From a virus: a stretch of 27,477 bases of DNA. The notes beneath the pieces are model-generated. The model searched no databases. It saw only the letters and a list, made by a program, of their open reading frames with translations, and was not told the DNA's origin. A program made the translations under genes and the position numbers. Shown here piece by piece: positions 8,187-27,477 of the stretch (the stretch's first letter is position 1; every line of letters starts with the position of its first letter). The stretch is taken from positions 1-27,477 of IMG/VR virus record IMGVR_UViG_3300027762_000030. One strand, written 5' to 3'.

Positions 8187-8848
8187 TGGGCTATCCGTTT
8201 CGGGGCCATGATGCCCTTAGTGGGGAGGCCTGGTATTTATCAGGCGGCATCGCGGCGGCAGACGTTGCCGGAGTATGGCAACCCAAAGGCGCGGCAAGTC
8301 TGGCTGCATCCTACCTGAGATTAGCGGGGGATGAAGGTTATGCAAACCTTGATCCTGCGGTTGTTGGAAATGGCGTTGCGCCAGGGTTCGGGGCTGATGG
8401 TTGGATTGGGAACGCGTCTTCGGCATTTCTTGATTCTGGCCTAGTGCCTCAATCAACTTGGTCGGCTGTAATAAGGTTTTCGTCCGCATCCAGTTCAACT
8501 CAATGGCTGTTTGGCGAGGCTCTTTCTAGTCGAGAATTTGCAATATCGCCATACTATACCAGCAACGTTGTTATCTATAGGATGGGCGGTTCGGCAAACG
8601 TTGCTTCCGGGCTTGCGTCTGGGGTACTGGCGATAACGCCAACTGATGTATACCGCAATGGCATAGACGATGGAAATATTTCTGGATGGTCTGGCACAAA
8701 TACGTATAAGGTTTACTTCCTTGCCAGGAATTTGTCAGGATCGCCAAGTGGATATTTTGGCGGAATTATTCAGGCAATCGCAATTTACAAGACCACAATC
8801 ACAGCCGCACAAGCGGCGGCAGTATCTAGCGCGGTCGCGCTAATCTAG
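8186..8848 (+). CDS. LamG/concanavalin A-like lectin-type protein
   Basis: The gene starts at a TAATG overlap with GGAGG upstream. The 220-residue product is rich in Ser, Gly and Ala. Its second half has the layout of the laminin-G/concanavalin A-like fold: repeated beta strands (WSAVIRFSSASSSTQWLFGE, YKVYFLARNL), a GYFGGIIQAIAIYKTTITAAQ closing segment and a final helix. That ending is the usual one for LamG domains in phage tail and fibre proteins, where it binds sugars. The N-terminal third resembles no domain I know and may attach it to the particle. A receptor-binding or decoration role fits, given the glycosidase two genes downstream. Confidence 0.6.
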   Translation: MGYPFRGHDALSGEAWYLSGGIAAADVAGVWQPKGAASLAASYLRLAGDEGYANLDPAVVGNGVAPGFGADGWIGNASSAFLDSGLVPQSTWSAVIRFSSASSSTQWLFGEALSSREFAISPYYTSNVVIYRMGGSANVASGLASGVLAITPTDVYRNGIDDGNISGWSGTNTYKVYFLARNLSGSPSGYFGGIIQAIAIYKTTITAAQAAAVSSAVALI

Positions 8849-8857
8849 GAGGATCAG

Positions 8858-9259
8858 ATGGATTACAGACAGCAGATAACTTTAGCACGAACACAAGATT
8901 TCTATGAGCGGGTGATGCAGGCCATGATCGAATACGCCATCACCGTCAGCAAAGAAGAAAGCAGCGGGGATTATGACGTAGACCAAAGACGGGTGACACT
9001 GGCGCAGGACGTATTGAGACGAAGCACGGAACTCTCCCCCCGTTTTTCACATGCGGTTGCCACGATTGTGAAAGACGGAGAAGCAAGCGACGCTGATCTT
9101 AAGGGCGCAGTCGCAAGCGTGTGGAATGCGTTTGCCTGTCTCAACCCACGGGCAGCAAAGCCGGGTACAGTCTCGGACACACCCAAGATTGATGGTGAAT
9201 TTGTGGGAAGTGAAAGCAACGTCCAGACCAAAACGTTTATGCAGAAGATATTCGGATAA
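8858..9259 (+). CDS. Conserved-type small phage protein of unknown function
   Basis: A strong AGGAGG precedes the ATG by five bases. The 133-residue product is helical and polar: an N-terminal Phe/Tyr-rich helix (TQDFYERVMQAMIEYAITV), then QRRVTLAQDVLRRS, then a region ending AVASVWNAFACLNPRA. The pattern of two helices and an x-V-x-S-x-WNAFA element recalls short proteins near structural genes of many tailed phages, which have no assigned function. The tail (about residues 100-133) looks unstructured. It could be a minor head or assembly protein. Confidence 0.45.
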   Translation: MDYRQQITLARTQDFYERVMQAMIEYAITVSKEESSGDYDVDQRRVTLAQDVLRRSTELSPRFSHAVATIVKDGEASDADLKGAVASVWNAFACLNPRAAKPGTVSDTPKIDGEFVGSESNVQTKTFMQKIFG

Positions 9260-9261
9260 GA

Positions 9262-10158
9262 ATGAACCGCCGTGAATTTTTGAAGGCAACGCCAATCATG
9301 GTAGCAGCACCATTCACCCAGTATTTTCCAATAGTCCTTTACCACGCCCCATTTGGCGCACAGATCGAAGGGCGGGTAAAGACCTTTGAGTCTCGGCTGG
9401 CGGAGAATAGAGTATATCAGTGGTCGTTGAAGTGGCGGGATTGGTCGACTTCGCGGGCATTGTACGAAGAGAACGCGGCTACATTGGCGGGGCATCCACA
9501 GATCATCACCATAAAAGTGGTGCCTGAAGAATACAGGTTGTGGCCGGGGTTTGTCGGCTCTCCACCCCGGAAAGATGCTTACCCGGAATTGGCAAAGTTT
9601 GTTCAGGAAATTGTTTACAGGTTCAATCCGGAAACCATTGAACTATTCAACGAACCGAATGTGTTGGTATCGGATGCGTTTGCACCCGAATGTTTTGGAG
9701 CATGGGTTGAAGATGACTGGTATGGTGGTGGCAAGCGGTATGGTGAATGCGTCAAGTATGTTTATGAGCATGTGACCGGGGCCAGACTTTTAGCCGGCGC
9801 GCTGATGATGCACCCGAATAGTATGACATTCTTAAAGGGTGCGTTGGCGGCGGGGATGCGGCCTGATGGTATCAGCTATCACACCTATATCCGGCATGAA
9901 AGCGAATTCGGAAAGTTTATTGAGAATGCCCGGGCAATACGGCAACTGACAAATTTACCACTGACACTCACAGAGACAAGCGTATTAGGTGATGGCAGCC
10001 CGGCTCACATCCAGCGAAAGATAGACTACCTGTATTATCTGCGGGACAACGCTGCTGGATATGTAAACGGATGGAACTGGTACACCATCGGCGGCAATGG
10101 ATGGGAAGATAGTGACCTGGACCCGCAAACAGTTTGGGAGGTATGGAAATCCTTATGA
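9262..10158 (+). CDS. Glycoside hydrolase-like TIM-barrel protein (clan GH-A type) with Tat-like leader
   Basis: The 298-residue protein has the two catalytic signatures of clan GH-A retaining glycosidases: an acid/base motif ELFNEPN (Asn130-Glu131-Pro132) and a nucleophile-type strand LTLTETSVLG (Glu238), separated by about 107 residues as in GH5/GH39-like barrels. Aromatic residues (GISYHTY, NGWNWYTIGG) would line a sugar-binding cleft. The N-terminus MNRREFLKAT matches the twin-arginine consensus (RRxFLK), but the hydrophobic core after it is weak and no clear AxA cleavage site appears. It probably attacks a cell-surface or sheath polysaccharide, for entry or release. A peptidoglycan role is unlikely for this clan but cannot be ruled out. 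Its stop overlaps the portal start. Confidence 0.7.
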   Translation: MNRREFLKATPIMVAAPFTQYFPIVLYHAPFGAQIEGRVKTFESRLAENRVYQWSLKWRDWSTSRALYEENAATLAGHPQIITIKVVPEEYRLWPGFVGSPPRKDAYPELAKFVQEIVYRFNPETIELFNEPNVLVSDAFAPECFGAWVEDDWYGGGKRYGECVKYVYEHVTGARLLAGALMMHPNSMTFLKGALAAGMRPDGISYHTYIRHESEFGKFIENARAIRQLTNLPLTLTETSVLGDGSPAHIQRKIDYLYYLRDNAAGYVNGWNWYTIGGNGWEDSDLDPQTVWEVWKSL

Positions 10159-11804
10159 AGAATAACAGCAACGTAGCCAAGTGGAGAGAAATCCAAGACG
10201 AAGCCCTTGACCTGGAATCGCAACACGTTGGGCGAACAGAACTATTCAACGAGATGGAGGAGATGTACTTCCTCGAACCGGCGGACAAAGGGAAACTGGG
10301 CAGGCTGGGCGACAATACGAAAGTGACCATCTCCCCCGACCCCGCCAACCAGCTTGATGGAGCGGTGAGACTGATGACTGCGACCGATCCCAAGTTCAAA
10401 GTATCGCAGGAGATCCCCGACCGGGATAACATCGAGGACTTTGCCGATGCGATGTGGCGGGGAAGCGGACGGATCAGCGGCATCCCGGCCCATTACGATG
10501 CGATCCTATCCGCCCTGCTGTATGGCGAAACACACATGGGCGTCACGTCTATGCGAAAGATGGCGGAGTTTACCAAAGACAAGGTGAATGCACGAATGGC
10601 GCAGCAAGCCATGATGCAGACCCCGTATATGTTCCCGGTGTGGTCGCCGCGTGATTGCTACGCCAGGTATGGCAGGCTGGGACTGACCGGGCATTTGCGC
10701 AAGACGAGCATGAGCGTGCGGGATTTACGCTATGACTGGGGGGAGCAAGTTGACAGCGTTCTCGGGCATAAGAACAACCGGGATAAGGTGGACTATTATG
10801 AGTGGTGGGACACAGAATACCAGGCGGCATGGGTTGGCGGGTGTGCATCCCCGATACTATGCAAGCCACATGACCTGGCGTTCCTCCCGATTGTGCATTG
10901 CCTGACCGAAGGATCATCGGCGCTCTTCTCTGACACATCCAAACAACTGCGCCCGTTTCTGTATAAGGTGGCGAAGAGTGGTCTTTGGAAGCGGGACAAC
11001 TTATTGATGACCGTCTTCTTCACCATCATCTTTGGCATTGGCGGCAACCCCATGTATAAATTCCGCTCACCCAGCGGCCGGCAATACGATGTGGACTGGT
11101 CGCAACCGGGTGGGGTGATTAATCTTGGTCAGGGTGAGGAGTTTGATTCGCTGATCAAGAATGCCATTGACCCGTCCATCATCCAGGGCAAGCAGATGAT
11201 TGATGAGAAGATGGCTGACAGCACCATGTATAAGCAAGCATTGGGGCAGCCGTTGGGGGGGAGTTCGCCTTACAGTTTGGTGGCCTTGCTTTCACAGTCT
11301 GGACGATTACCACTGGTATCCCCGCAGCAGCGATTGGGCTGGATGATTGCCAGGGCAATGTGGGTGGCCTTCATGTGGATGAAAGAAGAGGGGAAGACCA
11401 AAGCGAAATCCGGGAAGTATGGAAAAGCGATTGAATTTGACCCGGCAGCCATTGGTGATGATTTTGATATTGACGTTGAGTTGGACATCAAACTTCCACA
11501 GGATCAATTGGGGCTGGCGAACGTTGCGAACCTGCTCACCCAGAGCGGGCTGGTATCGCAGGAATGGATTAGATCGGAAGTGCTGAACATCGGCAACAAC
11601 GAGAAGATGAGTGAAAGCGTATTGCGGGAGCGATTTACCGGGATGCTGGCAGAATTCTTATCACAGCAGATGATAGCACAGCAGCAACAACCACCACCAC
11701 AACAGCCCCCCGCAACTGGTGGACTTCCCCCGGAGATGATGGCGGGTGGAATGCAGGGGCCGGAACCTTTGCCGGGAGAAGCGCCACAGAATGGAATGAT
11801 GTGA
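10155..11804 (+). CDS. Portal (head-tail connector) protein
   Basis: This 549-residue protein is called the portal from its size, its position before the head genes, and its internal pattern. An N-terminal helical wing has DPANQLDGAVRLMTATDPKF. The centre holds a W-S-P-R-D-C-Y-A-R-Y-G element of the kind that follows the wing in portal proteins, and a long middle helix region (QGKQMIDEKMADSTMYKQAL). The C-terminus is a low-complexity Gln/Pro/Met tail from about residue 515 (QQQQPPPQQPPATGG). ATG 10155 forms an ATGA overlap with the glycosidase; TTG 10134 and ATG 10143 are less likely starts. Portal dodecamers form the channel for packaging and ejection. Confidence 0.75.
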   Translation: MKNNSNVAKWREIQDEALDLESQHVGRTELFNEMEEMYFLEPADKGKLGRLGDNTKVTISPDPANQLDGAVRLMTATDPKFKVSQEIPDRDNIEDFADAMWRGSGRISGIPAHYDAILSALLYGETHMGVTSMRKMAEFTKDKVNARMAQQAMMQTPYMFPVWSPRDCYARYGRLGLTGHLRKTSMSVRDLRYDWGEQVDSVLGHKNNRDKVDYYEWWDTEYQAAWVGGCASPILCKPHDLAFLPIVHCLTEGSSALFSDTSKQLRPFLYKVAKSGLWKRDNLLMTVFFTIIFGIGGNPMYKFRSPSGRQYDVDWSQPGGVINLGQGEEFDSLIKNAIDPSIIQGKQMIDEKMADSTMYKQALGQPLGGSSPYSLVALLSQSGRLPLVSPQQRLGWMIARAMWVAFMWMKEEGKTKAKSGKYGKAIEFDPAAIGDDFDIDVELDIKLPQDQLGLANVANLLTQSGLVSQEWIRSEVLNIGNNEKMSESVLRERFTGMLAEFLSQQMIAQQQQPPPQQPPATGGLPPEMMAGGMQGPEPLPGEAPQNGMM

Positions 11805-11805
11805 G

Positions 11806-12009
11806 ATGGACATTTCAACTGTACGCAACGCATATTTGAGCGCCAGAGTGGAAGTGAATGGGGTGATCGGGAAGGTGATGGAAGACTTCTTCATGCCGGA
11901 TGAACTGATCAAACTGGCAATGATGAATGCGACCATGCCCCCGGAAGCCAGAGCGTTATTAGATGCAGAGACGCAGGGGAAGATCAAGGAGGTATTGAAT
12001 GGCAAATGA
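11806..12009 (+). CDS. Small hypothetical protein after the portal
   Basis: One base separates it from the portal stop. The 67-residue product is helical (VEVNGVIGKVMEDFFMPDEL, MPPEARALLDAETQGKIKEV), with no cysteines, membrane span or recognised motif. Its end overlaps the next start by eleven bases. A role as a minor head or portal-associated protein is possible from position alone. Confidence 0.55.
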   Translation: MDISTVRNAYLSARVEVNGVIGKVMEDFFMPDELIKLAMMNATMPPEARALLDAETQGKIKEVLNGK

Positions 12010-12730
12010 TCCTAGAAGGCCCAAACCGATTGAGTGGGGCAGTAATAATTTATCCACCCCCGTACCGGGACAAATCCAATGGCCGAGTGGAGGAGGCTTA
12101 TCTACCCCCGCCAAACCACCCCAGCCCATCCAATATGGCGGCGGTCGGACGGGTGTATCCGGGCAGACCACCAAACCAACCGGGATTGGATTGCAGATTG
12201 AAGTATCCGCCGATGGTAGTTACTGGCGCTACACCGTGCCTGGCAGCGGGTGGTATTCGCCGTGGAATATGAACACCACGCCCCCGCCAATGGCAATGGG
12301 TGGCAGTCCGACCGGCGGTACAACCGGAACGCAAAGTACAGGCGGGTACTGGGATCGGAACTATGGTGGCTGGCGCAGCGGCGGGGTGCTGGAAACGGCG
12401 CAAAAGAATTCTGATGGAACCTACAGCAACACAATGAACCAATGGGGACAGCCGATTGGGACGCCCGGACCGTATGGGCAAAAAGGCGGGAAAAGCGGTA
12501 AGCACGGTTCTGGACAGGCGATGAAGCCGGAGGACATCCCATCGGTAGAGAAAATACAGGCGCAAATCTCGCAGATGGAACAGGGGATTGCCAGCGGCAA
12601 ACTCAACAAAGACAGAGCGCAATATAGAATAGCGGCGCTCAACTACATGCTACAGAAGTTTCATGGTGGAGATAGCAGCGCAGGCACACAATCCGGCGTT
12701 GCTGGATCAATTGTACGCTGGAACCCATAA
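11999..12730 (+). CDS. Gly/Pro/Gln-rich low-complexity virion-type protein
   Basis: AAGGAGG lies close before ATG 11999. The 243-residue product is largely disordered: the first 60 residues are rich in Pro, Gly and Ser with repeated small motifs (GGGLSTPAKPPQPIQYGGG), and residues 95-175 again are Gly/Thr/Ser rich. A short ordered patch with IEVSADGSYWRYTVPGSGWY may be a small beta domain. The final 65 residues form a likely helix (IPSVEKIQAQISQMEQGIAS, then YRIAALNYMLQKF). Such proteins between portal and ejection or capsid genes can be structural linkers. No family recognised. Confidence 0.6.
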   Translation: MANDPRRPKPIEWGSNNLSTPVPGQIQWPSGGGLSTPAKPPQPIQYGGGRTGVSGQTTKPTGIGLQIEVSADGSYWRYTVPGSGWYSPWNMNTTPPPMAMGGSPTGGTTGTQSTGGYWDRNYGGWRSGGVLETAQKNSDGTYSNTMNQWGQPIGTPGPYGQKGGKSGKHGSGQAMKPEDIPSVEKIQAQISQMEQGIASGKLNKDRAQYRIAALNYMLQKFHGGDSSAGTQSGVAGSIVRWNP

Positions 12731-12742
12731 AGGGCGGGTGAT

Positions 12743-15700
12743 ATGACCTTTCAACCCATTGAGGCAGAGGGAAGCGGGCAATCCGTTTCTATTGAACAAT
12801 TTATTCAGGACTACCAACCCGGCGCAGATGTAGGCAGCGTGATCGAGGGCGGGGCGAACCGCGAATATTGGGCAAAGCCGGAGAACCTGGGGAAGTGGTA
12901 CGAGACAGTATCCAGCATGGCCCCGGATGAAATGGCCCCGGAATGGCTGGACACCGAAGGATTGACCCTGGCTTATGACTACATGAGCCGATTGAACGAC
13001 GGGAAATCCTGGACGGCATGGGACAAGACCCCCGGTGTGGATGACCCGGTATGGGACTTCCTGAAAGCATTATCTATTCCCCCGGAGGATATGGATATTC
13101 AGACCCCCAACCAGGTGGAACAGATCACCGTCCCCGGCGCGGAAACCACCCCAATGCAGGGCAACTACAGCACATTTGGGATGCCACAAGAGCAATGGGA
13201 TAGCCTGTCAACTTTCCAGCAATGGATGACCCGGATATTTAGCACGGGCGCAACTGCCGGCGCAGCTCAGGGAGCAATAGCGGGATTGCAGGGTGGTGTA
13301 CCGGGAGTAATTCTGGGTGGTGTATTGGGTGGAGTATTGGGAAAAGCAACAGACGCCCCCGCCTCCCCCACCTACGCGGGGCAATACCCCGGCGCGGCGC
13401 AGGCATCCGAAACATATTGGGATCCAAATAAGACCAATGTTGTGGTAAAGGCGTTGATGCTATTGAACGTTGGCGCAGAATTCACCAAACGAGTAGGGGG
13501 AATGGCCGGACTTGCTGGACTATCCGCATTGGGATCAACGGAGAAGGCAATCACCGGAGAGACAGGACTACCCCTGATCACCGAATTGATGGACAACCTG
13601 GGGGCGGCGTGGGATGTATCGCAGTTGGCCTACCGGGTATTACCCAATGAGGAAATCCTGAAAGCAGCCGCGACCACCGTCACCCCGCAAGCGTTTGTGG
13701 TCCGGTTTGGCGCAGAGCAGGCGAAAATACTGGCAGAACAATTCGAAAAACTTGGGATGGATATTCCTGATTGGGTGATGGGCGGGATCGAGAAAGCCGC
13801 ACCCTACCTGGAAGGAAACCCGTGGGCGATTGTCGCAGCCAAAAACAAAGGCCAACCGGAAACCGCCTGGACGATGGGAACCACCGAAGTGCGCGAACTG
13901 GCAGAGTCGGAGATGGGATACCAGGCGCTTACCGAGGCGTTTGATCGGGTGGTTGGCGGCGAGAGTATGGAAAGCGTGTTTACCGACTACCAGAAACGGT
14001 ATGGCTTTGAAGGTGAAATGCGGGAGTTATTCGGAACCATGCTGGCAGACCCGCTTAACTTTGCGGGAGTGGGGCTTTCAAAAACGGGGGCGAAGCTGGC
14101 AAAAGCGACCGGCTTTACGGCTGACTTTGTGAACGCATTGGACAGCTCGTCCGGGCTAATTCACGGAATGCGAACGTACAAAGAAGCAGCGAAACTTACC
14201 CAACCCAAAGACATCCACCTGAACAGCATCGAACGGTGGTTATCCCCCTGGACACCCGAAGGGAAAGCGAAGAGCCTGGAGAAGCCGGTTTATAACAACA
14301 AACTGGAAGCAGCCTGGGGCTACATGACCACGTTGGAACCGAAAGCGCGGGCGATTGAAGTGGTGGACGGAATGGGAACGAACCTGACCGGCGTGTTAGA
14401 CCGGGCGGGATATGACCCCGTGACCATGCAGAAGTTTGTGGACGGGATTGCCAACAATGACCCGCGCGTGATTGCTGAAATCGGGATGCGCACATTGGGC
14501 GGGAGTGAAGCCGCAGCCCTGCCGGTTGCATTGCGGGACTGGTCGCCCAAAGGAAAAGCACTGGTGGAAGTGTGGAGCAAGCGGGCATGGTCCAGAGACA
14601 TCCTTGCGAAAGTTGCGAAGGTAAGTGGGCGAAGTATTGATGATGTGTTGAAATCGCTGGACGATGTAAGCGGAAAAGAATCGGACATCCTGGCAAAACA
14701 GTTTGTAGAAGCCGCCCGCCAATCGGGGGATGAAGCTGCAAGTACAATCGTCCAGGCGTTTGATGCAGGCGACTTCAGTGGAAAGACCTTGCAGGACTTT
14801 GCCAAAACGTATTTGAAAGACAAAGCCCCGCTGACTGAGAGCGAATTCATGGGGCGATACTATACCGGCATGATGGATCACATCGAGAAATGGACGGCGG
14901 AATATTTTGGGGTGAAGCCCGACCACTGGACAATCCGCATGAGCAACACCGTGAAGAACGTCCAGGGCATCTTTATGCTGGACGGATCCCCGAATTACCT
15001 GTTTGAAAACGGGATGGATAACATCGTCAAGCTGGCCTATGAAGGTGTATTGGACTTCGATACCAAAGGGCGGCGGGATGCGTTCTGGTCAGAGTTTGGG
15101 GTTAAATCCCCCCGGATGGAAGAGACGTTTATCAGCCGGGAGAAGAACGTCAAAGGCGCAATTGACGAAGCCGGGGTACAGCCCGGAAAACTGGAGGACT
15201 TTAATAAACTGGTACGCTCTGGCCGACGCAGATTCGGGTTATTCTCCAACGCGTCCTCCAAACTGGAAGGGTGGTCAACCGACACGGCCATGTATCATGG
15301 CGTAAGACAGGCGATGAACTACCTGTGGCGACCTGGGAAGGGATTTGACCGGATACCCCCCGGCCTGGAAAGATCGCTGGATGGCATTCAGCCCGGACTG
15401 GCGAAGGTGATCGAGCGCAAGATTGCCAGCGGGGTAAGCAAAGCGCAGATTGAAAAAAGCATCTGGGAAGCAGCCGGAAAAAAGACGGTTGATGAAATCC
15501 TCGGAGAAGCGTCCGAAACCCTGGGCGTGGATGATGCGATGGCGCGGGATGCCATGCAGAAAACCGGGGCGTATGACTACCTGAAAGACAACATCCCGGA
15601 AAATGCCACCGATGCAGACATCGACAAAGCATTTGCAGGACTGGCGAATCACATCTCGGAAAAGATGGACGAATGGACAGACCTGAGAATAAAAGCCGAA

Positions 15701-18700
15701 GCCGAGAAAGCGGCGAACATCGCCAAGACCGAAGGCCCGCTGGGGATCGTTGACCTGTACGATGAAGCCGCCCTGGACGAGGCCACCACCCACATTGGCG
15801 GGTATGATGGTTGGGAGCGGGTGTACGAACTGCAAGACATGATGACCCCGGAAGAGTTTGGGCGGATGTTGAAGAACCAGCGCAGCCTATCCGATGCGGC
15901 GCACAAACGAAGCTGGAAGAGACGCCGGGCAAATTACGTGGGGATCACCGAACAACTGGGGATTGATGGACAATACGCCAAGACCCTGGAACTCAACCTG
16001 ATCGACCAGGAAAAGAACTGGTCTGAATTCCATAAGCTGAAATGGGACTTGTGGAAAGACGCCAAGAAATCTAAGGACACCCCCGAATGGGCAATTGTGC
16101 GGGATGAAGTGCGGGCGAAAGTGCGGGCGGCATTCCAGGACGCCACCAGGGTTGAACTGGAATTGCAACGCAAGCTGGATGCAGAACTGGTGAAGACGCT
16201 GGAAGCGTGGTATGGGCCGGAGGTAAGCAAGATTGCCCAGACCTGGCGGGAAGGCGTGGCAAATATCCGGGAGGACATGACCCAGAGAATGTTGGCGCAC
16301 CGGGAAGAAGTTGACCAGATCAAGAAGCCCGAAGAAAAGCGGGCAGCGTGGGACAAGTTTCTGACCGAGGAATACAAGCCCGCCATTGTGGAACGGATGC
16401 ATCAGAACATCACCGGCGCGCATGAGGTTTATAAACTGGCAAGCGCAGCCACCCCGAAAGAAGCCCCCGCCCCCATCAAGAGCGCGGAAGAGATTGTAAG
16501 CACTGCGAGGGCGGAGTGGTTGGAGCAGGCCCGGGCTGATGTGGTGGTGAAGAAACACGGCCTGACCCCGGATGAGATGGGTACAGTCAACCAGATACGG
16601 CAGATTGCCAGTGAGTATGGATTGGCAAGCGCGAAGGCAGACGGATCACCTGACCCCGGATTTGATAGACATTTACTTGCTACGGTAAATAAGTATCTTG
16701 GTACAGACACGAGTCGGGTTGCAGACTTATCGCCGGATCAGGTGCGGCAGGCGTTTGAAGAAAGAGCAAAAGCGAAAGCACCGCGGGTGGAGATGGAAGC
16801 GGCAAGAGTGGTAGAGACGCCAGCCGTGGAGCCACCAAAGTCAGAATTCGCCATCAAACGCGAGGAACTATTCGACCAGACCCGCGGAGAAATGCCACCG
16901 GAAATCTCGGAAGCAGTAAAAGCAGAAGCCGAGATGATGTTGGAAGAACTCAAACAAGGCGAAGCGGGCAAGCGGGTATTCACTTGGGTGGACTACCAGA
17001 GCCAGCCCATTGTCACGGGGCAGCCATCAACAAATGCGCAATGGTATCGAGACCTGTACTTCGATAAGAAGCTGAACAAGAAAGCGGTTTACACAGCCCT
17101 GGAGCGGATCATTGAGGACAAGGGGAAGGATGACGTTCGCTATAAGAATGTGCGAGAAGTCAAAGACCTGTTACTTGATCGTTTGATAAATGGCGCTGAA
17201 AGTGAACTTGCCGGGCAAACTCCCCCAGACCCCAAAATCCTGACGTTTTTAGGCGATATGGAAGGGGCGGCGGATGCATTAGTACAGTGGATGGACTTGT
17301 ACGAAGCGAACGGCACGCCCATGCCCTATGATGAAATGGTTAAGCTGGCTGGATCGGAGGAGGGATTTGCTCGTCTGTTGGACATCATGGATGAGATGCA
17401 AGCGAAGAAGCAACCTCCCCAACCAGAGGTGGTTGTTGATGATTCAATTCCATTTTTGCAGACTGAAGCCACCCAGCCACAGGTGGAAGCAGAGCGGGCG
17501 GCTGAGATGCCGGAGCAGGCGGCGGCTAGTGGGTCATCAACAAAAACTTTTAGCCCTGTTTATGATGACTATGTAAAACCATTTGCCGATAGATTGGCTG
17601 AAAGTAACGATCTATTAAGCATAGAACAGTTACTTGAAATGTCGAAAGGTGAAATCACAAATAATATAAAAAATCTCCAAAAGAAATATTTTGGGGATGA
17701 CATCGAGTTTACCGAACGAGCTGTATTTGATTGGGCTATGTCGCAATACTACAGACAATTATTCAACTCAATTGATCCGCATGCTTTAACTTCTGAGAAG
17801 TTCTACAAGTTATATACTCCCGTCGAAATAATTGATGGCGAAACAAGAATCTATTCAAGAGAAGAATTCCCCTATCTAGTTGATACGTTTCAAAAGTACG
17901 GGAAGAAGTGGTTTATTGATGTAAATAGCGGCAAAGCAACGCCTATGGGGAATTACAGCTCAGAATACCTGAACGGTATTAGCGCAGATGATTTATTCGA
18001 GCTTCACGCAGCATTTGTTGAGCGCGCCCTCTCCGAAGGCAAGCCCGTTCCTGCTGAAGTGCTGGCAGACTACCCAGACCTGGCGGCGAAGTATTCGCAG
18101 CCCACCCCGCCAAAGGTAGAAGCGCCACAGGTGGAAGCGACCCAACCCCCACCCATTGAAGAAGTGACCATTGAAGAACCAATCACCCCCGCACCATTCG
18201 CACTTCTGGAAGAGCCAACATTAGAGGAGATGGCCGGGCGGATTGAAGAACTGGAACGGGAAACGATACAAGCGAAAGTGGAGGAATGGGGCGGGGAAGT
18301 CAGCGAAACGGCAAACCCCAACCCCAACCCTGTTGGTGACGCTCCCCCCGGAACCGTCACCGGACTATACCCCCAGGACATCGGGAAACTCTTCGAAAGC
18401 GGATGGAACGAAACCATCTATCATTTGATTGACACCATGCAGGGACGGATGAAGGGCGACACCGGCAATGCCGTGAATTTGAAAGACGCCAACCTATCCC
18501 CAGAACAGGTGAAGGAGGTAAGAAGATATCTCGAAACACAATACGCCAAACTGACAGACGCCAAACTGACAGCTACACGATACGCAAAAGTAAACCGGGA
18601 CATTGCCCTGCTCGACTACACCAAACGCTATGGCGCGGACAACATAGCGGGGATCGTCTTCCCCTATCAGTTCTGGTTTACCCGGAGCGCGATGGAATGG

Positions 18701-20545
18701 GCGATGCGGGCGATTGATCACCCCGCTTATCTCTCCCAATACAGCCGGATAAGAGACGCCCAGGAGCGGATGAGCAAACAGATGCCCGGGTTCCCGGCGC
18801 GATTGCGCGGCAAGATGTCTATCCCATTCCCGTGGTTGCCGGAAGGGTGGGGGAATACCATCTACGTTGACCCGCTCAAACGGATGTTTAGCTTTGAACA
18901 GATGTTGAATCAGACCATGCGACCACTGCAACAGGATGAAGCCAACCGGATCAGTAAGGCGCAATTCCTGATTCGACAAATGGCGGAAGACGGGCAGATC
19001 ACCCAGGCGCAGATGAGCGAAGCCCTGAACAACAAAGCCGGCCCGATATGGGAGAAAGCCATCACCCAGGCGCAGATGGAAGTGGAAGCGGAGATCGCCA
19101 ACCCGATTGACCTGGTGAACACCATGAGCGGGTTTAGCTGGCCGCTGCAAGTTGCCTACCAGAAAATCATGGGGCGGGAAAGCAAGATCAAAGCCCCGCC
19201 TTCTCTGCAAGCCGTCACCAACATCACCAGCTTTTTTACCCCCGGCGGAGTGAATGCGGGTGGGTGGTTACAGAAAGCCCTCGGCGCGCCGGAGCGCGGG
19301 TTCCTGTTCAATTACTACATCGAACGGGAATTATCGAACATGGTCGCAAACGGGGAAGCGAACATAGAAGAGGTGATGCTGGCAATGGTAGACCAGCAGG
19401 GGGAATTGTGGCAGGAAGCGATGAGCCGGACGGGAAAGCAAGCGGCGGTCAAGTCGTATACTGCCACCCTATCACTTGACTTGTTCCCGGAAGGCGAACA
19501 AGAACAGCGGATACTGCAACAGGAATTCAGCCAGGCGATAGAAAACGGGACAGTGGCAGAATTCTTTGACGCCAACCCGGAATACGAAGCCCGGATGATG
19601 CTCACCAACTGGGACGACCCGGAAGAACGGGTGAAACGCTACCTGATTGGATCCATCTGGGACGCCTACAATGGCCTGAGCGAACTGGAACGACGGGAAG
19701 CGACCGACCAACTGGGAGAACTGTTCCAGGAAGCGTTCCTGAATAAAGAAACCCGCTCTTACGATGCAATTGATTTGGCAACGATCACGGAATGGACGCA
19801 GCTATTAGGCGGCAAAGTGCCAGACACCGCCCCCGCCGTGCCACAAGGGAGTTTGGAACTGCCCGGCCAGGCCGAAAGCGGAGCATACAGCACCTACCTG
19901 GAAACTCGCAAGACACAATTCCCGAATATCGACCTGATCCAGAGCATGTACTACAAACTGCCCCCGGCCATGCAAGATCAGTTCAGACAGAATAACCCCA
20001 TGCTGACCGAATACCAGGAATGGCGGGATATGTTCATCGCAGAAAACCCCGACCTGATCCCGTATATGATCGGAGAAGAGAGCCGCTTATCCGGCGTCCC
20101 GGAAGAAATCTTGACGCAGGTGTACGCATACAAAGGTGAGAAAGCCCAATACTTCCCCAAGATCGGACTGACCCAGGACAAGTATTATTCATTGACCGGG
20201 GCAGCTCGCAAAGCCTACCTGTTGGACCACCCGGAATTACGGCAATACTGGGACTGGCAGAAAGCACGGCTGGCGCAATCACCGGAAATTATCCCCCATG
20301 TCAAGAGCAGCGACACGATAGCAAAGGCAGTATTGGGAGATGACTACACCGCCGGATACCGGGTGGATAGCAACCTGTTCGATGGATATGTCAGCACAGA
20401 ACTATTCGCCCACACCCTGACCGGCAAACCGCTGGGCGAAGGCGCGCGGGCAGAACTCTACTCCCTGTGGAAAAAGGAAAAGAGCGGCCTGCCCTATGAC
20501 GCGTGGTTGGCGCAGGTATTGGAACTATTTTCTTATCAGCAATAA
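12743..20545 (+). CDS. Giant (2600-residue) mosaic virion protein, candidate ejection/polyvalent protein
   Basis: One uninterrupted gene fills 28% of the window. Visible parts: a polar N-terminus; a glycine-zipper membrane-type segment (168-200); helical blocks with FGTMLADPLNFAGVG and a NYLFENGMDNIVKLAYEG pattern; highly charged coiled-coil stretches (about 900-1230); Pro/Glu-rich linkers near 1235, 1350, 1575 and 1790; a compositionally different insert (about 1598-1750); the motif GKPVPAEVLADYPDL at its end; a conserved-looking block with IVFPYQFWFTRSAMEWAMRA and FPWLPEGW; and two related C-terminal repeats (about 2375-2515). Giant proteins with such blocks lie beside portals in phages and are thought to be packaged and injected. 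No catalytic motif was recognised, so its enzymatic status is open. A second promoter begins right after its stop. Confidence 0.8.
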   Translation: MTFQPIEAEGSGQSVSIEQFIQDYQPGADVGSVIEGGANREYWAKPENLGKWYETVSSMAPDEMAPEWLDTEGLTLAYDYMSRLNDGKSWTAWDKTPGVDDPVWDFLKALSIPPEDMDIQTPNQVEQITVPGAETTPMQGNYSTFGMPQEQWDSLSTFQQWMTRIFSTGATAGAAQGAIAGLQGGVPGVILGGVLGGVLGKATDAPASPTYAGQYPGAAQASETYWDPNKTNVVVKALMLLNVGAEFTKRVGGMAGLAGLSALGSTEKAITGETGLPLITELMDNLGAAWDVSQLAYRVLPNEEILKAAATTVTPQAFVVRFGAEQAKILAEQFEKLGMDIPDWVMGGIEKAAPYLEGNPWAIVAAKNKGQPETAWTMGTTEVRELAESEMGYQALTEAFDRVVGGESMESVFTDYQKRYGFEGEMRELFGTMLADPLNFAGVGLSKTGAKLAKATGFTADFVNALDSSSGLIHGMRTYKEAAKLTQPKDIHLNSIERWLSPWTPEGKAKSLEKPVYNNKLEAAWGYMTTLEPKARAIEVVDGMGTNLTGVLDRAGYDPVTMQKFVDGIANNDPRVIAEIGMRTLGGSEAAALPVALRDWSPKGKALVEVWSKRAWSRDILAKVAKVSGRSIDDVLKSLDDVSGKESDILAKQFVEAARQSGDEAASTIVQAFDAGDFSGKTLQDFAKTYLKDKAPLTESEFMGRYYTGMMDHIEKWTAEYFGVKPDHWTIRMSNTVKNVQGIFMLDGSPNYLFENGMDNIVKLAYEGVLDFDTKGRRDAFWSEFGVKSPRMEETFISREKNVKGAIDEAGVQPGKLEDFNKLVRSGRRRFGLFSNASSKLEGWSTDTAMYHGVRQAMNYLWRPGKGFDRIPPGLERSLDGIQPGLAKVIERKIASGVSKAQIEKSIWEAAGKKTVDEILGEASETLGVDDAMARDAMQKTGAYDYLKDNIPENATDADIDKAFAGLANHISEKMDEWTDLRIKAEAEKAANIAKTEGPLGIVDLYDEAALDEATTHIGGYDGWERVYELQDMMTPEEFGRMLKNQRSLSDAAHKRSWKRRRANYVGITEQLGIDGQYAKTLELNLIDQEKNWSEFHKLKWDLWKDAKKSKDTPEWAIVRDEVRAKVRAAFQDATRVELELQRKLDAELVKTLEAWYGPEVSKIAQTWREGVANIREDMTQRMLAHREEVDQIKKPEEKRAAWDKFLTEEYKPAIVERMHQNITGAHEVYKLASAATPKEAPAPIKSAEEIVSTARAEWLEQARADVVVKKHGLTPDEMGTVNQIRQIASEYGLASAKADGSPDPGFDRHLLATVNKYLGTDTSRVADLSPDQVRQAFEERAKAKAPRVEMEAARVVETPAVEPPKSEFAIKREELFDQTRGEMPPEISEAVKAEAEMMLEELKQGEAGKRVFTWVDYQSQPIVTGQPSTNAQWYRDLYFDKKLNKKAVYTALERIIEDKGKDDVRYKNVREVKDLLLDRLINGAESELAGQTPPDPKILTFLGDMEGAADALVQWMDLYEANGTPMPYDEMVKLAGSEEGFARLLDIMDEMQAKKQPPQPEVVVDDSIPFLQTEATQPQVEAERAAEMPEQAAASGSSTKTFSPVYDDYVKPFADRLAESNDLLSIEQLLEMSKGEITNNIKNLQKKYFGDDIEFTERAVFDWAMSQYYRQLFNSIDPHALTSEKFYKLYTPVEIIDGETRIYSREEFPYLVDTFQKYGKKWFIDVNSGKATPMGNYSSEYLNGISADDLFELHAAFVERALSEGKPVPAEVLADYPDLAAKYSQPTPPKVEAPQVEATQPPPIEEVTIEEPITPAPFALLEEPTLEEMAGRIEELERETIQAKVEEWGGEVSETANPNPNPVGDAPPGTVTGLYPQDIGKLFESGWNETIYHLIDTMQGRMKGDTGNAVNLKDANLSPEQVKEVRRYLETQYAKLTDAKLTATRYAKVNRDIALLDYTKRYGADNIAGIVFPYQFWFTRSAMEWAMRAIDHPAYLSQYSRIRDAQERMSKQMPGFPARLRGKMSIPFPWLPEGWGNTIYVDPLKRMFSFEQMLNQTMRPLQQDEANRISKAQFLIRQMAEDGQITQAQMSEALNNKAGPIWEKAITQAQMEVEAEIANPIDLVNTMSGFSWPLQVAYQKIMGRESKIKAPPSLQAVTNITSFFTPGGVNAGGWLQKALGAPERGFLFNYYIERELSNMVANGEANIEEVMLAMVDQQGELWQEAMSRTGKQAAVKSYTATLSLDLFPEGEQEQRILQQEFSQAIENGTVAEFFDANPEYEARMMLTNWDDPEERVKRYLIGSIWDAYNGLSELERREATDQLGELFQEAFLNKETRSYDAIDLATITEWTQLLGGKVPDTAPAVPQGSLELPGQAESGAYSTYLETRKTQFPNIDLIQSMYYKLPPAMQDQFRQNNPMLTEYQEWRDMFIAENPDLIPYMIGEESRLSGVPEEILTQVYAYKGEKAQYFPKIGLTQDKYYSLTGAARKAYLLDHPELRQYWDWQKARLAQSPEIIPHVKSSDTIAKAVLGDDYTAGYRVDSNLFDGYVSTELFAHTLTGKPLGEGARAELYSLWKKEKSGLPYDAWLAQVLELFSYQQ
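18543..18572 (+). repeat. Perfect 15-bp tandem duplication inside the giant gene
   Basis: ACGCCAAACTGACAG occurs twice in direct succession, adding the residues AKLTD/AKLTA in frame. It is a recent in-frame slippage or duplication within the C-terminal half of the giant protein. Confidence 0.8.
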
Positions 20546-20593
20546 CTTGTAATTTACAAGCGATTGTTGTATAATAGCATTAATCTGATTAAT
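20546..20593 (+). promoter_or_regulatory. Capsid-operon promoter with palindromic operators (copy 2)
   Basis: CTTGTAATTTACAAG (20546-20560) is identical to the palindrome at 4149. Inside it is a -35 box TTGTAA, 17 bp from TATAAT (20570-20575). Three bases later comes a second perfect palindrome, ATTAATCTGATTAAT (20579-20593), centred 33 bp from the first. Transcription should begin near 20582, leaving a 28-base leader with AAGGAGG (20600-20606). It sits directly after the stop of the giant gene and would give the scaffold and capsid genes their own, stronger supply of message. Confidence 0.85.
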
Positions 20594-20609: not shown

Positions 20610-21251
20610 ATGGAAGGGCAAGAATTGAAAGTTGTTGCACCGCCCGCAGGCCAAACGGGTACTCCCCCGGCAACGGGACAGAGCGAGGCTGCAACTCAAC
20701 CGACAGTCACCCGTGATGAAGTCTTAAAACTGGTGGGAGAAGCAGAAGAAAAAGCATTCCGCCGGGCGCAAGGTCTGATCACAAAAACAAACACACGCAT
20801 TCGGAGCGAGGTAACAAAACTTGAACAGCAGCTTACCAAAGCAGGCGTGACGCTGGATGGAAATCAGAAAGCGGCGCTGGAGCAGCAAGTTACTGACCAG
20901 GTTCTTACCGAGGAAAACTCAGCGGCGGGGGAAGGCCAACCACCGTCCACACTGACAGACCCCTCATTGGTCGATCCGATTACCAAAGTGGCGCAGCAAA
21001 TGATGGATGAGGCTGGGGTGGTCATCTACGATAATGACCCGGAAGCGAAACTCATTGACATGAGCGACCCCTACAAATTCCTCAAATCATTGCCGGCTGC
21101 CATTGAAGTCAAGAAAGCGCGTGAAAAATCCCCCGTGAAAGATGCGACCAGCACCCCCGGATTATCTGGGGCGGGCGGGCCGACATCACCATACTCAGGC
21201 AAAAGCGGGTTGGACCTGATATCTGAACATTTCAGATCGAAAGGTCTCTGA
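20610..21251 (+). CDS. Scaffolding-like protein
   Basis: The 213-residue protein precedes the major capsid gene and starts after a near-perfect Shine-Dalgarno (AAGGAGG). It has a Pro/Gly/Thr-rich disordered N-terminus, a central charged helical region suited to a coiled coil (DEVLKLVGEAEEKAFRRAQG, IRSEVTKLEQQLTKAG), an acidic middle and a Ser/Gly-rich tail ending in a basic helix (DLISEHFRSKGL). High polarity, a helical core and a short basic C-terminal helix upstream of the capsid gene are the usual signs of a scaffold that guides capsid assembly. No diagnostic sequence motif exists, so the call rests on architecture and position. Confidence 0.7.
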   Translation: MEGQELKVVAPPAGQTGTPPATGQSEAATQPTVTRDEVLKLVGEAEEKAFRRAQGLITKTNTRIRSEVTKLEQQLTKAGVTLDGNQKAALEQQVTDQVLTEENSAAGEGQPPSTLTDPSLVDPITKVAQQMMDEAGVVIYDNDPEAKLIDMSDPYKFLKSLPAAIEVKKAREKSPVKDATSTPGLSGAGGPTSPYSGKSGLDLISEHFRSKGL

Positions 21252-21276: not shown

Positions 21277-22257
21277 ATGGCATATACTTTAGCCGATTAC
21301 GCACGACTGGCGGAATCTCCGCTGAAGGCGGGCGTGATTGACATTCTGCGGATGGCATCGCCCATCCTGGACAGCCTTTCATTCAGTGACGAAGGCACGC
21401 TTGACATTGAACTCTTGCGCACCAAGAGCCTGCCGACCGTGTACAGCCGCAAAATTGGCGGCACGTTCACCGAGAGCAAAGGCCAGATTGAACCGGTGAA
21501 AGACCGGATCATCAACTTCGGTGGATACATCGACATCGACAAGACCCTGATGAAAGCCAAAACGCAGGTGGATCAGAAGGCGCTGCAAGTCTCGATGTTC
21601 ACCAAGGCCATGGGCGCGTATTTCAACAACGTCTTCTTCAACGGCACACCGACCAGCGATTACGACTCTTTAACCGGGTTGTGGTATCGACTGGTCAACT
21701 ACCTGCCCTCGGCGCAGTCTATTGCAGCCGGGAGTATTGACATCTCCCCGGACAGCGCAACCCTGGCGGCTGACAAAATCAAACTGGTCGATTACGTCCA
21801 TCAACTGATGGATGTCACCGGTCACGGCGATGGCGGGCCGGATATTCTCTATATGGGGCGCACCCTGAAACTGCGCTTTGAATCGGCCATGCGCCAATCC
21901 GGCATGTTGGGAACCACGACCGACAGCTATGGTCGCACGTTTGCCACGTTTGGCGAAGGCGGCCCGAAGATCATGGAAGCGGGGGTAACTGACCCGCTGG
22001 ATTTGACCGCCCAGGTGTTGGGTGTGGCTGAATTGGCTGATGGAACTGCTCTTACCGGCGGAGCATGTAGCTCGATTTACTCCGTAAAATACGGCGGAGA
22101 ATACGTTAACGGTTTCCAGGTCTACCCGATTGATGTTCAGGACATCGGCCTGCTGCAAGCTGGGAACGCCTACCGGGTGACGATTGACTGGACGCCCGGC
22201 ATCTACATGGTCTCGCCGTTCTCGGTTGGCCGCATTCATGGCATCGTGGCCGCGTAA
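21277..22257 (+). CDS. Major capsid protein (HK97-fold type)
   Basis: The 326-residue product begins MAYTLADYARLAES with CGGAGGG upstream. It has an N-terminal arm and helix, then a TVYSRKIGGTFTESKGQIEP segment like the E-loop and a long P-domain helix region (KALQVSMFTKAMGAYFNNVF). A late Gly-rich A-domain (GGEYVNGFQVYPIDVQD) leads to a C-terminal beta strand with TIDWTPGIYMVSPFSVGRI. This order, its length and the upstream scaffold fit HK97-fold capsid proteins, whose fold is conserved while sequence is not. It should be the most abundant virion protein. The next gene follows within ten bases. Confidence 0.83.
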   Translation: MAYTLADYARLAESPLKAGVIDILRMASPILDSLSFSDEGTLDIELLRTKSLPTVYSRKIGGTFTESKGQIEPVKDRIINFGGYIDIDKTLMKAKTQVDQKALQVSMFTKAMGAYFNNVFFNGTPTSDYDSLTGLWYRLVNYLPSAQSIAAGSIDISPDSATLAADKIKLVDYVHQLMDVTGHGDGGPDILYMGRTLKLRFESAMRQSGMLGTTTDSYGRTFATFGEGGPKIMEAGVTDPLDLTAQVLGVAELADGTALTGGACSSIYSVKYGGEYVNGFQVYPIDVQDIGLLQAGNAYRVTIDWTPGIYMVSPFSVGRIHGIVAA

Positions 22258-22650: not shown

Positions 22651-22682
22651 GCCCGCCTGCTATCTAGTGGGCGGGCTATTTT
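22651..22682 (+). terminator. Terminator closing the capsid operon
   Basis: The arms GCCCGCC (22651-22657) and GGCGGGC (22670-22676) are perfect complements around a 12-base loop, followed by TATTTT. It lies 27 bases after the decoration-like gene and isolates the scaffold-capsid unit, which begins at the promoter near 20550. Confidence 0.8.
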
Positions 22683-22698
22683 GATAAGAAAGAGGACA

Positions 22699-24915: not shown

Positions 24916-25563
24916 ATGATCTATTGGGGTGTCCTCCTCGAACGAGGCATGTACGACGAAGCGGTAGACAGCTTATTGGGAGTAGCCTCCCGATGCGGAT
25001 CGCAGAACTGGACCCGGATCAGCGTGCCGCACACCGCAACCGAATGGGCGCGGGAACAATTTACGGAAGCGTTTATGGAAAGCACCAGCGACCCGTATGA
25101 CACATTGGTGATGTTGGATGCAGACCACAAATACCCCGCCAACGTGGTGGAAAGACTGGCGCTTGACCCGCACCCGGATTATGGGGTAGTGGCCGCGCTT
25201 GCATTCTGCCGGGGAGAAGACAGCCGCCCGGCGTTTTACATGAAAGACAGCGAAGACCCGGAATTCTGGTACTCAACGAGCAAGATACCGGAGAATAAAA
25301 TCATCCCGGCGGACATGGTGGGAACCGGGGCGATAGCGATTCGGCGCTGGGTATTCGACAAACTGCAACCACCCTACTGGAAGAAAATGTATGATGTGGT
25401 ACGCGGCGGGGAGGATTGGTACTTCTCCCTGCAATGTGAGAAAGCGGGGATTGCAAGGTACGTGCATACCGGCGTGGAGATCCCGCACATTCGTTTGGGA
25501 ACTGTGACAAGAAAAGACTGGGAGAAATATTGCTATGACAACCTTAGCATCAGCGACACTTGA
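24916..25563 (+). CDS. Second glycosyltransferase-like protein (GT-A type)
   Basis: ATG 24916 is preceded by GGAGATAGG; a GTG at 24889 is the alternative start. The 215-residue protein has a DxD-type metal/nucleotide-sugar motif in TLVMLDADHKYP (Asp68-Ala-Asp70), then GTGAIAIRRWVFDKL, RGGEDWYFSLQCEKAG and a closing HIRLG histidine, the usual order for small GT-A enzymes. It lacks a membrane segment. It is the third carbohydrate-linked gene after the capsid operon, and overlaps the adaptor-like gene by 29 bases. With the upstream fused enzyme it may build a glycan on virion or host surface. Confidence 0.7.
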   Translation: MIYWGVLLERGMYDEAVDSLLGVASRCGSQNWTRISVPHTATEWAREQFTEAFMESTSDPYDTLVMLDADHKYPANVVERLALDPHPDYGVVAALAFCRGEDSRPAFYMKDSEDPEFWYSTSKIPENKIIPADMVGTGAIAIRRWVFDKLQPPYWKKMYDVVRGGEDWYFSLQCEKAGIARYVHTGVEIPHIRLGTVTRKDWEKYCYDNLSISDT

Positions 25564-26332
25564 CCTGGCCCGGCTGATCACCAGCGTGGTGGAAGGGACA
25601 GCCACCGGGGGATCGGCAACCACCCTGCTTGATACCGGGGTCACTGAAGAGGATGACTACTTCAACGGCGGAACCATCTGGCCTTTGAGCGGGAACAACG
25701 CCGGAAAGAGCGCAGTCATCACCGATTGGGCGAAATCGACCGGGACATACACCTTTGCCACCATGACCCTGGTCAACGCGGCGGGTAATCTATACGCATC
25801 CTGTAATGCAGACTTCCCCCGGTATGTTTTGATTCAGGCGATCAATAAAGCGTTAAGGGCCATTGGAGGAATACCGGCGCAAGATGCTACTTTGGTGACA
25901 GTGGCAGACCAGGAAGCCTACACCCTACCGGCGGGCGTGATCGATGTACGGAAAGTGGAAGTGGCAATGATGACCACCGCACCATACCAATACGTCCCGC
26001 ATTTTGGCTGGCGGCAAATTGGAACCACGATTGCATTTGACACAGAGCGCGCCCCGGATGAAGCCGATTACAAAATCAGGCTGACCCATGTGGCATTGCC
26101 CACCACGCTTACAGCGGACACAGACGCGATCTCGAATTACATCTACCCTGACCGGCTAAGCTGGAAAGCGGCGGTACATGCGCTGAGATGGCGGGTACAA
26201 CGATATCGGGAAGACCGCCCCGACCTGATCAAACTGATGAATGAAGCCCTGGCGCAAGAAGCCCTGATGGATGCGCGCTATCCGATCTATGGCTTACAGA
26301 AGACCCCGCACATGGGGGGATATTATGAGTGA
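25535..26332 (+). CDS. Head-tail adaptor/connector-like structural protein
   Basis: The 265-residue protein opens with a Thr/Ala/Gly-rich beta segment, then a helix (FPRYVLIQAINKALRAIGGIP) leading into DQEAYTLPAGVIDVRKVEVA, and a second helical region near the end (DRLSWKAAVHALRWRVQRYR, then LIKLMNEALAQEAL). That combination of a short helix, a Y-x-LP-x-G-V-x-D/E-V strand and a late Arg/Trp-rich helix is typical of tail-tube or adaptor proteins that dock on the portal of short-tailed phages. Start ATG 25535 lies inside the previous gene with GGGAGAAA upstream. The assignment is by pattern and position downstream of the capsid genes. Confidence 0.6.
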   Translation: MTTLASATLDLARLITSVVEGTATGGSATTLLDTGVTEEDDYFNGGTIWPLSGNNAGKSAVITDWAKSTGTYTFATMTLVNAAGNLYASCNADFPRYVLIQAINKALRAIGGIPAQDATLVTVADQEAYTLPAGVIDVRKVEVAMMTTAPYQYVPHFGWRQIGTTIAFDTERAPDEADYKIRLTHVALPTTLTADTDAISNYIYPDRLSWKAAVHALRWRVQRYREDRPDLIKLMNEALAQEALMDARYPIYGLQKTPHMGGYYE

Positions 26333-26429
26333 TTGCTGGCTATCAAAGAAGCCGCATATCATTGTCATTGCGATTATCTTAACCATCCTGGAGAGTATCT
26401 ATGACCGCATCCGCCAGCCCAACCAATAA
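26325..26429 (+). CDS. Tiny single-span membrane peptide
   Basis: The 34-residue frame starts eight bases before the end of the adaptor-like gene. A short basic N-terminus (MSDCWLSKKPH) is followed by IIVIAIILTILESIYDRIRQ, a single membrane span ending in basic residues. The downstream tail gene begins inside its end. Its position in a close-packed series supports expression, but it is so small that chance cannot be excluded. Confidence 0.4.
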   Translation: MSDCWLSKKPHIIVIAIILTILESIYDRIRQPNQ

Positions 26430-27477
26430 GAGAAGCAGCCACCACGTTGTACTGACCCAGGGAGCAACGTCAGTGGGATTGATCCTATGCAACAGCCAGG
26501 GCAAAGCCGAACCGCGCGCATTCAGGCGGCAAGAATACCAGCAGAGCGCCTTGCAGATTTCGACCGGGCAGCAGAAACATGCGGACTTCTCCGGGTTCTG
26601 GAAGTACATTGAACAGAACGATTGGAGCGGAGGCCGGGGGGCAAACGATTTTGACAAGGATACCAGCATGTATCTTGATGGCTACCAGATCAACACCATG
26701 CGACCGGGGGAGGTGATCTTGGGGCCGAAATCTACCATTGTCAGTTTTGGCGCTCTTGTATCAATGAGTAACAACATCGGAATACATTACAATACAAAAG
26801 CCTGCTACTTTTCCGGCGCAGTAACCGGAAGCACCGTTTACTATCGCACCAATAATAATGCCACTGTGACCATCACCGTAAAGGATGTCACTGTTACACT
26901 AAGAAAAACATCTGGAAGCGCAACCGCCGGGATTATGAGCCTGGGAATAAAGCCAGATGGCGGAAGCGAAGTATGGTCTGATAACAGCATATTTATCCCG
27001 TCTATCTCATCCGACGCGACATCCTACAAATTCACTTTTGCAGCGGGAGTGGCACTGACATCCGCTCAAGATTTTTACCTGACATTCAAAAACACAGGCG
27101 TGACCAGCAGCGCCGGAATTACCATTGCGCATCAAGAATCGGGATCGGAATGCGAACTATCCGTAAGCACAGACGGATCAACCTATACAGACACAGGTGG
27201 ACTACCACAAACCCCAAGTTACGTCATGACCAATGGTGGATCAGCAAAGAACAGAGCGCATCTATTCGAGTATAAGGGGGCGCTCTACTATGCGATGCAG
27301 AACAACAATGGCACATCCAGCAAACTCTATTTGAACGGTGATCATGGACTGGCAAAGACCGGGGCAACCACAACCGGAGTGACCATCAAAGGCCAGGCGT
27401 CATGGGCAACAGACGAGGCCATAGGATGTATCTGTGTGATTGTATCGGGAACGGGATCCAGCCAACCCCAAAACTGG
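26401..27477 (+). CDS. Tail/virion protein, 3' end cut by the window
   Basis: An open frame from ATG 26401, with GGAGAG six bases upstream, runs to the window edge without a stop (359 residues seen). The start has a TQGATSVGLILCNSQGKAEP strand, then FSGFWKYIEQNDWSGGRG and YQINTMRPGEVILGPK. This W-x-x-I-x-Q-x-D-x-SGG-x-G pattern is found at the N-terminus of large beta-rich phage tail proteins. The visible remainder is beta-rich, Thr/Ser/Gly-heavy, with regular strand spacing, consistent with a propeller or fibre. Its true length and C-terminal domain lie outside the window. Confidence 0.55.
   Translation, partial: MTASASPTNKRSSHHVVLTQGATSVGLILCNSQGKAEPRAFRRQEYQQSALQISTGQQKHADFSGFWKYIEQNDWSGGRGANDFDKDTSMYLDGYQINTMRPGEVILGPKSTIVSFGALVSMSNNIGIHYNTKACYFSGAVTGSTVYYRTNNNATVTITVKDVTVTLRKTSGSATAGIMSLGIKPDGGSEVWSDNSIFIPSISSDATSYKFTFAAGVALTSAQDFYLTFKNTGVTSSAGITIAHQESGSECELSVSTDGSTYTDTGGLPQTPSYVMTNGGSAKNRAHLFEYKGALYYAMQNNNGTSSKLYLNGDHGLAKTGATTTGVTIKGQASWATDEAIGCICVIVSGTGSSQPQNW

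Follow-up and report, generated by a model that had tools for sequence, protein, structure and literature searches.

A giant phage protein with two conserved arms and an exchangeable middle, encoded among head genes and likely to act as a carrier of injected cargo

The DNA analyzed here, referred to as the window, is the 27,477-nucleotide stretch of the IMG/VR record IMGVR_UViG_3300027762_000030. The only open reading frame in the window of at least 1,000 amino acids begins with an ATG and continues uninterrupted for 2,600 codons, encoding a protein of 291 kDa with a computed pI of 4.8 (the giant; Table 1). A single 7.8-kb gene between portal-side genes and the scaffold had been proposed in a preliminary description, and the frame confirms it, with the understanding that "portal" and "scaffold" are positional names. 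The window DNA recurs, without a single mismatch along its 27,477 bases, in another contig, which is 42,284 bases long; the giant gene is thus not an assembly chimera private to this record.

Table 1. Features of the giant gene and of neighboring genes in the window (residues refer to the giant).
Feature	Position	Strand	Basis
Portal by position	10134..11804	+	Profile A10 upstream of giant in 37/57 loci; no functional PHROG or Pfam match
Giant gene	12743..20545	+	ORF call; 2,600 aa
N-arm, conserved all-helical region (residues 27–1233)	12821..16441	+	Profile matches in 44/52 distinct giants; AlphaFold2
Glycine-zipper/hydrophobic segment (residues 169–205), possible membrane hairpin	13247..13357	+	Pfam match below cut-off; GxxxG counts
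Long charged helices closing the N-arm (residues 957–1199)	15611..16339	+	Model
Putative cargo slot (residues 1234–1884)	16442..18394	+	Flanked by the two arm profile matches
Pro/Ala linker near residue 1235	16445..16507	+	Sequence composition
Slot module A (residues 1285–1345)	16595..16777	+	In 7/57 giants searched
Linker near residue 1350	16763..16882	+	Sequence
Slot module B (residues 1381–1482), helical	16883..17188	+	Matched in 13/57 giants, 12 of them distinct; model
Disordered linker near residue 1575	17411..17560	+	Stretch with pLDDT < 50; Pro-rich
Slot module C (residues 1641–1800), ending in GKPVPAEVLADYPDL motif	17663..18142	+	Comparison among giants
Pro-rich linkers near residues 1780–1877	18080..18373	+	Sequence and model
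C-arm, conserved all-helical region (residues 1885–2507)	18395..20263	+	Profile match in 52/52 giants (search seed)
C-terminal repeat copy 1 (residues 2396–2442)	19928..20068	+	Self-alignment
C-terminal repeat copy 2 (residues 2474–2520)	20162..20302	+	Self-alignment
Scaffold by position	20610..21251	+	No PHROG match
Major capsid protein	21277..22257	+	phrog_212, E 2.9e-35
SU10-like adaptor, short-tail marker	25535..26332	+	PF24175, E 1.9e-10, 42 bits vs cut-off 27
Nozzle-like tail protein by position, running off the window	26401..27477	+	Profile A9 after adaptor in relatives

The landmarks that had been read along the chain were recovered by calculation. The four linkers (near residues 1235, 1350, 1575 and 1790) lie where they had been placed, and those at 1575 and 1790 also have pLDDT values below 50 in the structural model; the charged coiled coils correspond to long modeled helices (residues 957–1191), and the two copies of the C-terminal repeat align with a score of 86, whereas the best of 1,000 shuffles reached 43. 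The glycine zipper (residues 169–205) gives a Pfam E value of 3.3, which is under the cut-off, and holds at the level of the family described below: GxxxG runs occur within the first 420 residues in 19 of 35 complete giants, compared with a mean of 2.5 and a maximum of 6 after shuffling. Likewise, the view that the giant has no recognizable enzyme motif is borne out by whole-chain Pfam and PHROG scans, which gave zero matches above cut-off, and by a Pfam scan of its slot. The best PHROG match is to a family without function over a glycine-rich stretch (E 0.005).

Genes for the small and large terminase subunits are found upstream of the giant (phrog_51, 2e-29; phrog_979, 6e-34). When all 57 loci are counted, duplicates included, 37 have a match to the portal profile upstream of the giant and 43 have the capsid protein downstream of it, always on the strand of the giant; many of the loci with misses end too early, and other misses may be profile failures. 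The order terminase, portal, giant, capsid, adaptor and nozzle-like gene is unbroken wherever the markers were found. The nozzle-like protein has no Pfam match in three relatives and no PDB sequence match, and searches of the PDB with the adaptor, nozzle and portal profiles returned no credible chain. SU10 is a short-tailed phage, and the presence of an SU10-like adaptor therefore indicates, from sequence, that the phage carrying the window giant is probably short-tailed.

This genomic context makes it very improbable that the giant is the tape measure of a long-tailed phage. As expected of a tape measure, the giant is long and helical and is encoded by the largest gene, and it displays weak matches to the Pfam family TMP_3 (E 0.34, 11 bits vs a cut-off of 41) and to BFVD entries so named (E 0.08 or worse). 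However, its gene precedes the capsid gene instead of following tail-tube genes, the SU10-like adaptor is of the podovirus type, the complete relative MW202608 was deposited as Podoviridae, and the length of the giants, from 1,844 to 7,000 residues, varies partly through the insertion of enzyme domains. A clear whole-chain structural match to a tape-measure protein, which the preliminary description had named among the observations that would overturn its reading, was looked for with Foldseek, and none was found at E ≤ 0.001.

The 42,284-base contig also encodes, according to annotation matches, an "integrase" and a "metallo-endopeptidase", which we take to be a tyrosine recombinase and an M23-like peptidase, respectively. 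The presumed recombinase on the same contig would fit a mosaic gene devoid of any delivery role, such as a factor for lysogeny or superinfection that is produced inside the cell, a reading that the conserved position within the head-gene block across relatives renders exceedingly unlikely. As for the host, a first genome scan gave no match to the giant, and a second one retrieved a single Chloroflexi MAG contig of 9.4 kb that consists mostly of the giant's own frame. Among 396 genomes of the same class, four match, three of these weakly or in part. We regard the Chloroflexi MAG match as a host lead, not as a host assignment.

Several other elements of the neighborhood were recorded. The 64-base gap after the giant contains a promoter-like site (20547–20575; TTGTAA, a spacer of 17, TATAAT; 10 of 12 matches) that overlaps a CTTGTAATTTACAAG palindrome and is followed by an AAGGAGG ribosome-binding-like site preceding the scaffold-position gene; 2 such promoter-like sites were found in a 400-base region, vs 0.3 expected. 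The gene at 9262–10158, between terminase and portal, starts with a twin-arginine-like sequence (PF10518, under the cut-off at E 0.0017) and resembles, by eye, a secreted glycoside hydrolase. Between capsid and adaptor are located a fused MptE-like/glycosyltransferase-2 gene (22681–24180) and a gene that is glycosyltransferase-like by eye and has no Pfam match (24889–25563).

Sequence searches show that the window giant is no orphan but a member of a little-known family. Of 50,697 phage records, five match, each 41,774 bases long with identical giants; deposited as Podoviridae sp. ctptF532, they are apparently one genome. The remaining members were collected from IMG/VR by scans with single sequences and with C-arm alignments. 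After removal of five loci whose giant is identical to another over the whole shared length (L027, L028, L029, L038 and L071), the set comprises 52 distinct giants including that of the window, every one from metagenome-derived phage contigs. Thirty-nine distinct giants are complete within their loci (1,844–3,718 residues), and four longer ones were read through from the records (4,103, 4,413, 4,595 and 7,000 residues).

The giants are composed of two conserved regions, the N-arm and the C-arm, that flank a slot of variable content. The C-arm, which was the search seed, is matched by its profile in all 52 giants. The N-arm profile, built from five members, matches 44; five misses are due to the end of the locus (L014, L019, L036, L054 and L064), and in one of these, L036, the N-arm appeared on reading the whole ORF in record G020. 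Three complete, distant giants (L070, L073 and L074) have no match to the N-arm profile. The slot encompasses about 650 residues in the window giant, about 20 in L020 and 4,934 in G020. In a pairwise test of the 38 giants with long N-arm matches, both arms could be aligned over half or more of their length in 501 of 703 pairs, and the alignable part of the slot stayed below one quarter in 430 of these 501. The closely related L021 and L031 (N-arm identity 83%, C-arm identity 96%) are distinguished by a clean in-frame cassette of 219 residues that is present in L021 alone and sits at the start of the slot.

Individual members depart from this plan in detail. The L021 cassette (giant residues about 1172–1390) has no recognized function, and a weak KOW match may fall there. 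L057 and L058 have an insertion inside the end of the N-arm (residues about 1350–1680), slightly before the usual slot. In L013 the giant appears as two overlapping frames, 937–4644 with most of the N-arm and 4580–12022 with the slot and C-arm, which reflect either a genuine division of the gene or a frameshift introduced in assembly. The 7,000-residue giant with the 4,934-residue slot (L076/L077; record G020, locus L036) is encoded on an 86.7-kb contig and consists mostly of sequence without a recognized identity. In L080 (record G019, locus L035), residues about 4010–4321 show several additional, weak matches to the final portion of the C-arm profile, and the number of C-terminal repeats therefore seems variable in the family.

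Structural models of the window giant were calculated with AlphaFold2 from alignments without L003. The N-arm is predicted to be all-helical at modest confidence (mean pLDDT 70, pTM 0.39). The model of the slot and C-arm has a mean pLDDT of 70.5 and a pTM of 0.52, with an all-helical C-arm in which pLDDT values are mostly 85–96 from about residue 2140 to 2520. A hydrophobic segment is present within the first 450 residues in 23 of 35 complete giants and missing in 12 at the threshold used. For neither arm could a Pfam or PHROG family be assigned. A sequence search of solved structures with the profiles of the two arms gave no credible match, and Foldseek searches of BFVD with both models, and of the PDB with the C-arm model, returned no match at E ≤ 0.001. 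With VIA-align, the best alignments were Z 6.2 over 60 residues for the slot/C-arm model and Z 9.8 over 160 residues for the N-arm model (rmsd 5.6, to a designed helical protein), scores that, for helical bundles, may reflect just a common arrangement. The Pfam domain LPD38, a candidate match, was not found in any of 51 records, and the controls gave no signal either.

The slots of the relatives contain recognizable effector domains. A Pfam scan of 47 of the 52 slots revealed, among other families, ddrB-ParB in 8, ART-PolyVal (ADP-ribosyltransferase) in 8 and GGDEF in 3, along with single matches to PBECR5 and to a Strawberry-notch-type helicase. When whole records were searched, ART-PolyVal was found in 8 of 50 (7 over the cut-off, with L066 below it), ddrB-ParB in 8 of 50 and GGDEF in 4 of 50; PBECR5 and Helicase_C_4 were found in one record each of the 27, mainly with long-slot giants, that were searched for them. 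Two of the four GGDEF matches keep the GGDEF letters, and the others read ADEF and SGDEF. The HExxH zincin motif, a motif match and not a Pfam hit, is present in 19 of 52 slots, vs 0.125 expected from shuffled slots, and is absent from the arms. Every one of the 25 domain segments mapped to residues is located between the arms, among them the GGDEF domain of G020 (residues 2516–2589 of 7,000). Disparate effectors can share one chain, as in L052, which combines ddrB-ParB, ART, GGDEF and HExxH. At least one tested effector was detected in 23 of the 52 giants (22 without the sub-cut-off L066), and none of those tested in the other 29.

The linkers between modules, together with the zincin motif, could also be explained by a polyprotein that its own or a phage protease cuts into separate head proteins. 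We find this improbable, since the slots of the window giant and of 32 other giants lack HExxH, and the virion RNA polymerase of phage N4 (N4 vRNAP), which does have an HExxH motif, is packaged uncut, according to the text available of PMC5512222. A capsid-internal structural protein is a somewhat stronger contender, although still unlikely: the giant would organize the inner core or portal vertex and stay in the particle, the slot being tolerated filler and its enzymes acting in assembly. The location among head genes and the all-helical arms would suit such a role. On the other hand, ART, ddrB-ParB, GGDEF and PBECR5 have no evident use in assembly, and these domains are among those published for predicted injected proteins (PMC5512222, in part).

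The slot of the window giant matches no Pfam family at E ≤ 0.01, and its comparison with 50,697 phage records gave nothing meaningful (best E 9). Three modules are nevertheless distinguishable between the Pro-rich linkers. Module A is common to 7 of 57 giants and module B to 13 of 57 (one of them a duplicate), the latter being predicted to be helical, largely at high confidence; the last part of module C, which ends in GKPVPAEVLADYPDL, is shared, among the giants compared, only with L040. The window cargo would thus comprise three or so small modules of no recognized activity. The host-takeover activities suggested in the preliminary description find a counterpart in the ADP-ribosyltransferase, ddrB-type ParB, PBECR5 nuclease, GGDEF, helicase and zincin motifs of the relatives' slots, and not in the window's own modules, in which no enzyme was recognized.

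Conserved arms with an exchangeable, effector-bearing middle make the giant look like a carrier that loads cargo into the particle and delivers it into bacteria. The position and modular build that had suggested a packaged and injected protein stand, as does the placement inside the head-gene block; for loading in the head, ejection, membrane insertion of the N-arm and delivery of the slot, we rely on the plan shared with N4 vRNAP. We consider it likely, on this analysis, that the giant belongs to the ejection proteins of a short-tailed phage, is packaged in the virion and carries exchangeable internal cargo. It would be made late, together with the head genes, and the C-arm would load it at the portal vertex, by analogy with N4 vRNAP, whose C-terminal region is required for encapsidation (PMC5512222, partial text). 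At infection the giant may pass the tail threaded like a string of beads; the N-arm, with its membrane-seeking hydrophobic/glycine-zipper segment, would insert in the cell membrane, and the slot, held on flexible Pro-rich linkers, would become exposed in the cytoplasm and act on host defence or host machinery. Where present, the zincin may release the cargo.

A broader proposal, which we put forward tentatively and hold to be somewhat less probable than its opposite, is that the arms constitute a general loading-and-translocation chassis: any slot content, with lengths between about 20 and almost 5,000 residues, would be packaged and threaded into the host, and effectors would be exchanged as in-frame cassettes that leave the delivery machine untouched. 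Should this be true, the modules of the window giant would be effectors of new kinds. Reading the slots of relatives is a route to unknown early phage effectors, and the giants offer a testable system for the possible passage of chains of up to 7,000 residues through a phage tail.

The comparison with known systems reveals likenesses to several of them, with no significant sequence or fold link from the giant to any known ejection protein. The proposed role and the short-tail context are those of the T7/P22 ejection proteins (N4 paper, PMC12633501, in part), from which the giant differs in being a single chain and in the lack of a sequence or fold match. MuF-family polymorphic toxins also combine a conserved delivery part with a variable effector and are linked to temperate phages (PMC12226406, from partial text). 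By contrast, Pfam scans detected no MuF domain in the window giant or in four relatives, and the variable region of the giants is internal and not C-terminal, the C-arm profile being found in 52 of 52.

N4 vRNAP (gp50; Schitoviridae) is an ejected three-part protein of about 3,500 residues, as stated in the accessible portion of PMC12633501. N4 is short-tailed, as the window phage probably is, and its vRNAP is, like the giants, a very large chain with a similar plan, in which a helical, membrane-associated N-terminal part and a large helical C-terminal part enclose a catalytic middle. Unlike it, neither the window giant nor the families listed for 47 slots include a T7-like RNA polymerase domain. 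A profile comparison with the whole N4 protein gave a best probability of 6.8%, and one with nine C-terminal regions, from N4 and eight relatives, 3.7%, neither of which is significant. In tests for homology to the C-terminal region of N4 vRNAP, the signal was slightly above reversed controls, not collinear and not significant. With homology not established, the giant is better said to work like N4 vRNAP than to be one.

The closest thematic precedent is that of the polyvalent proteins, predicted injected multi-effector chains of phages and conjugative elements described by Iyer et al. 2017, who already reported polyvalent proteins with GGDEF domains and in portal contexts (PMC5512222, as far as its available text goes); ARTs near head genes were described in 2022 (PMC9503650, likewise in part). 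The giants resemble them in being encoded among virion genes and, in the relatives, in bearing ART-PolyVal, ddrB-ParB, PBECR, zincin-like HExxH, GGDEF and helicase domains beside portal and capsid genes. They differ in that effector domains occur only inside a single internal slot, flanked by two conserved arms, and in that the window giant's own slot has no recognized effector. Literature searches pairing polyvalent proteins with podovirus or portal, with ejection proteins and with MuF/polymorphic toxins, in sources of partial text with thin coverage of subscription papers, yielded no fixed-arm, internal-slot family, and under the same coverage no paper joining the terms polyvalent protein, ejection protein and phage. 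The polyvalent theme is therefore known, and the chassis with fixed arms and an internal slot may be new. Polyvalent proteins were defined by their effector domains, with little known of what brings them into the particle and into the cell; in the giants, constant arms around a variable middle allow the carrier to be told from the cargo by sequence alone.
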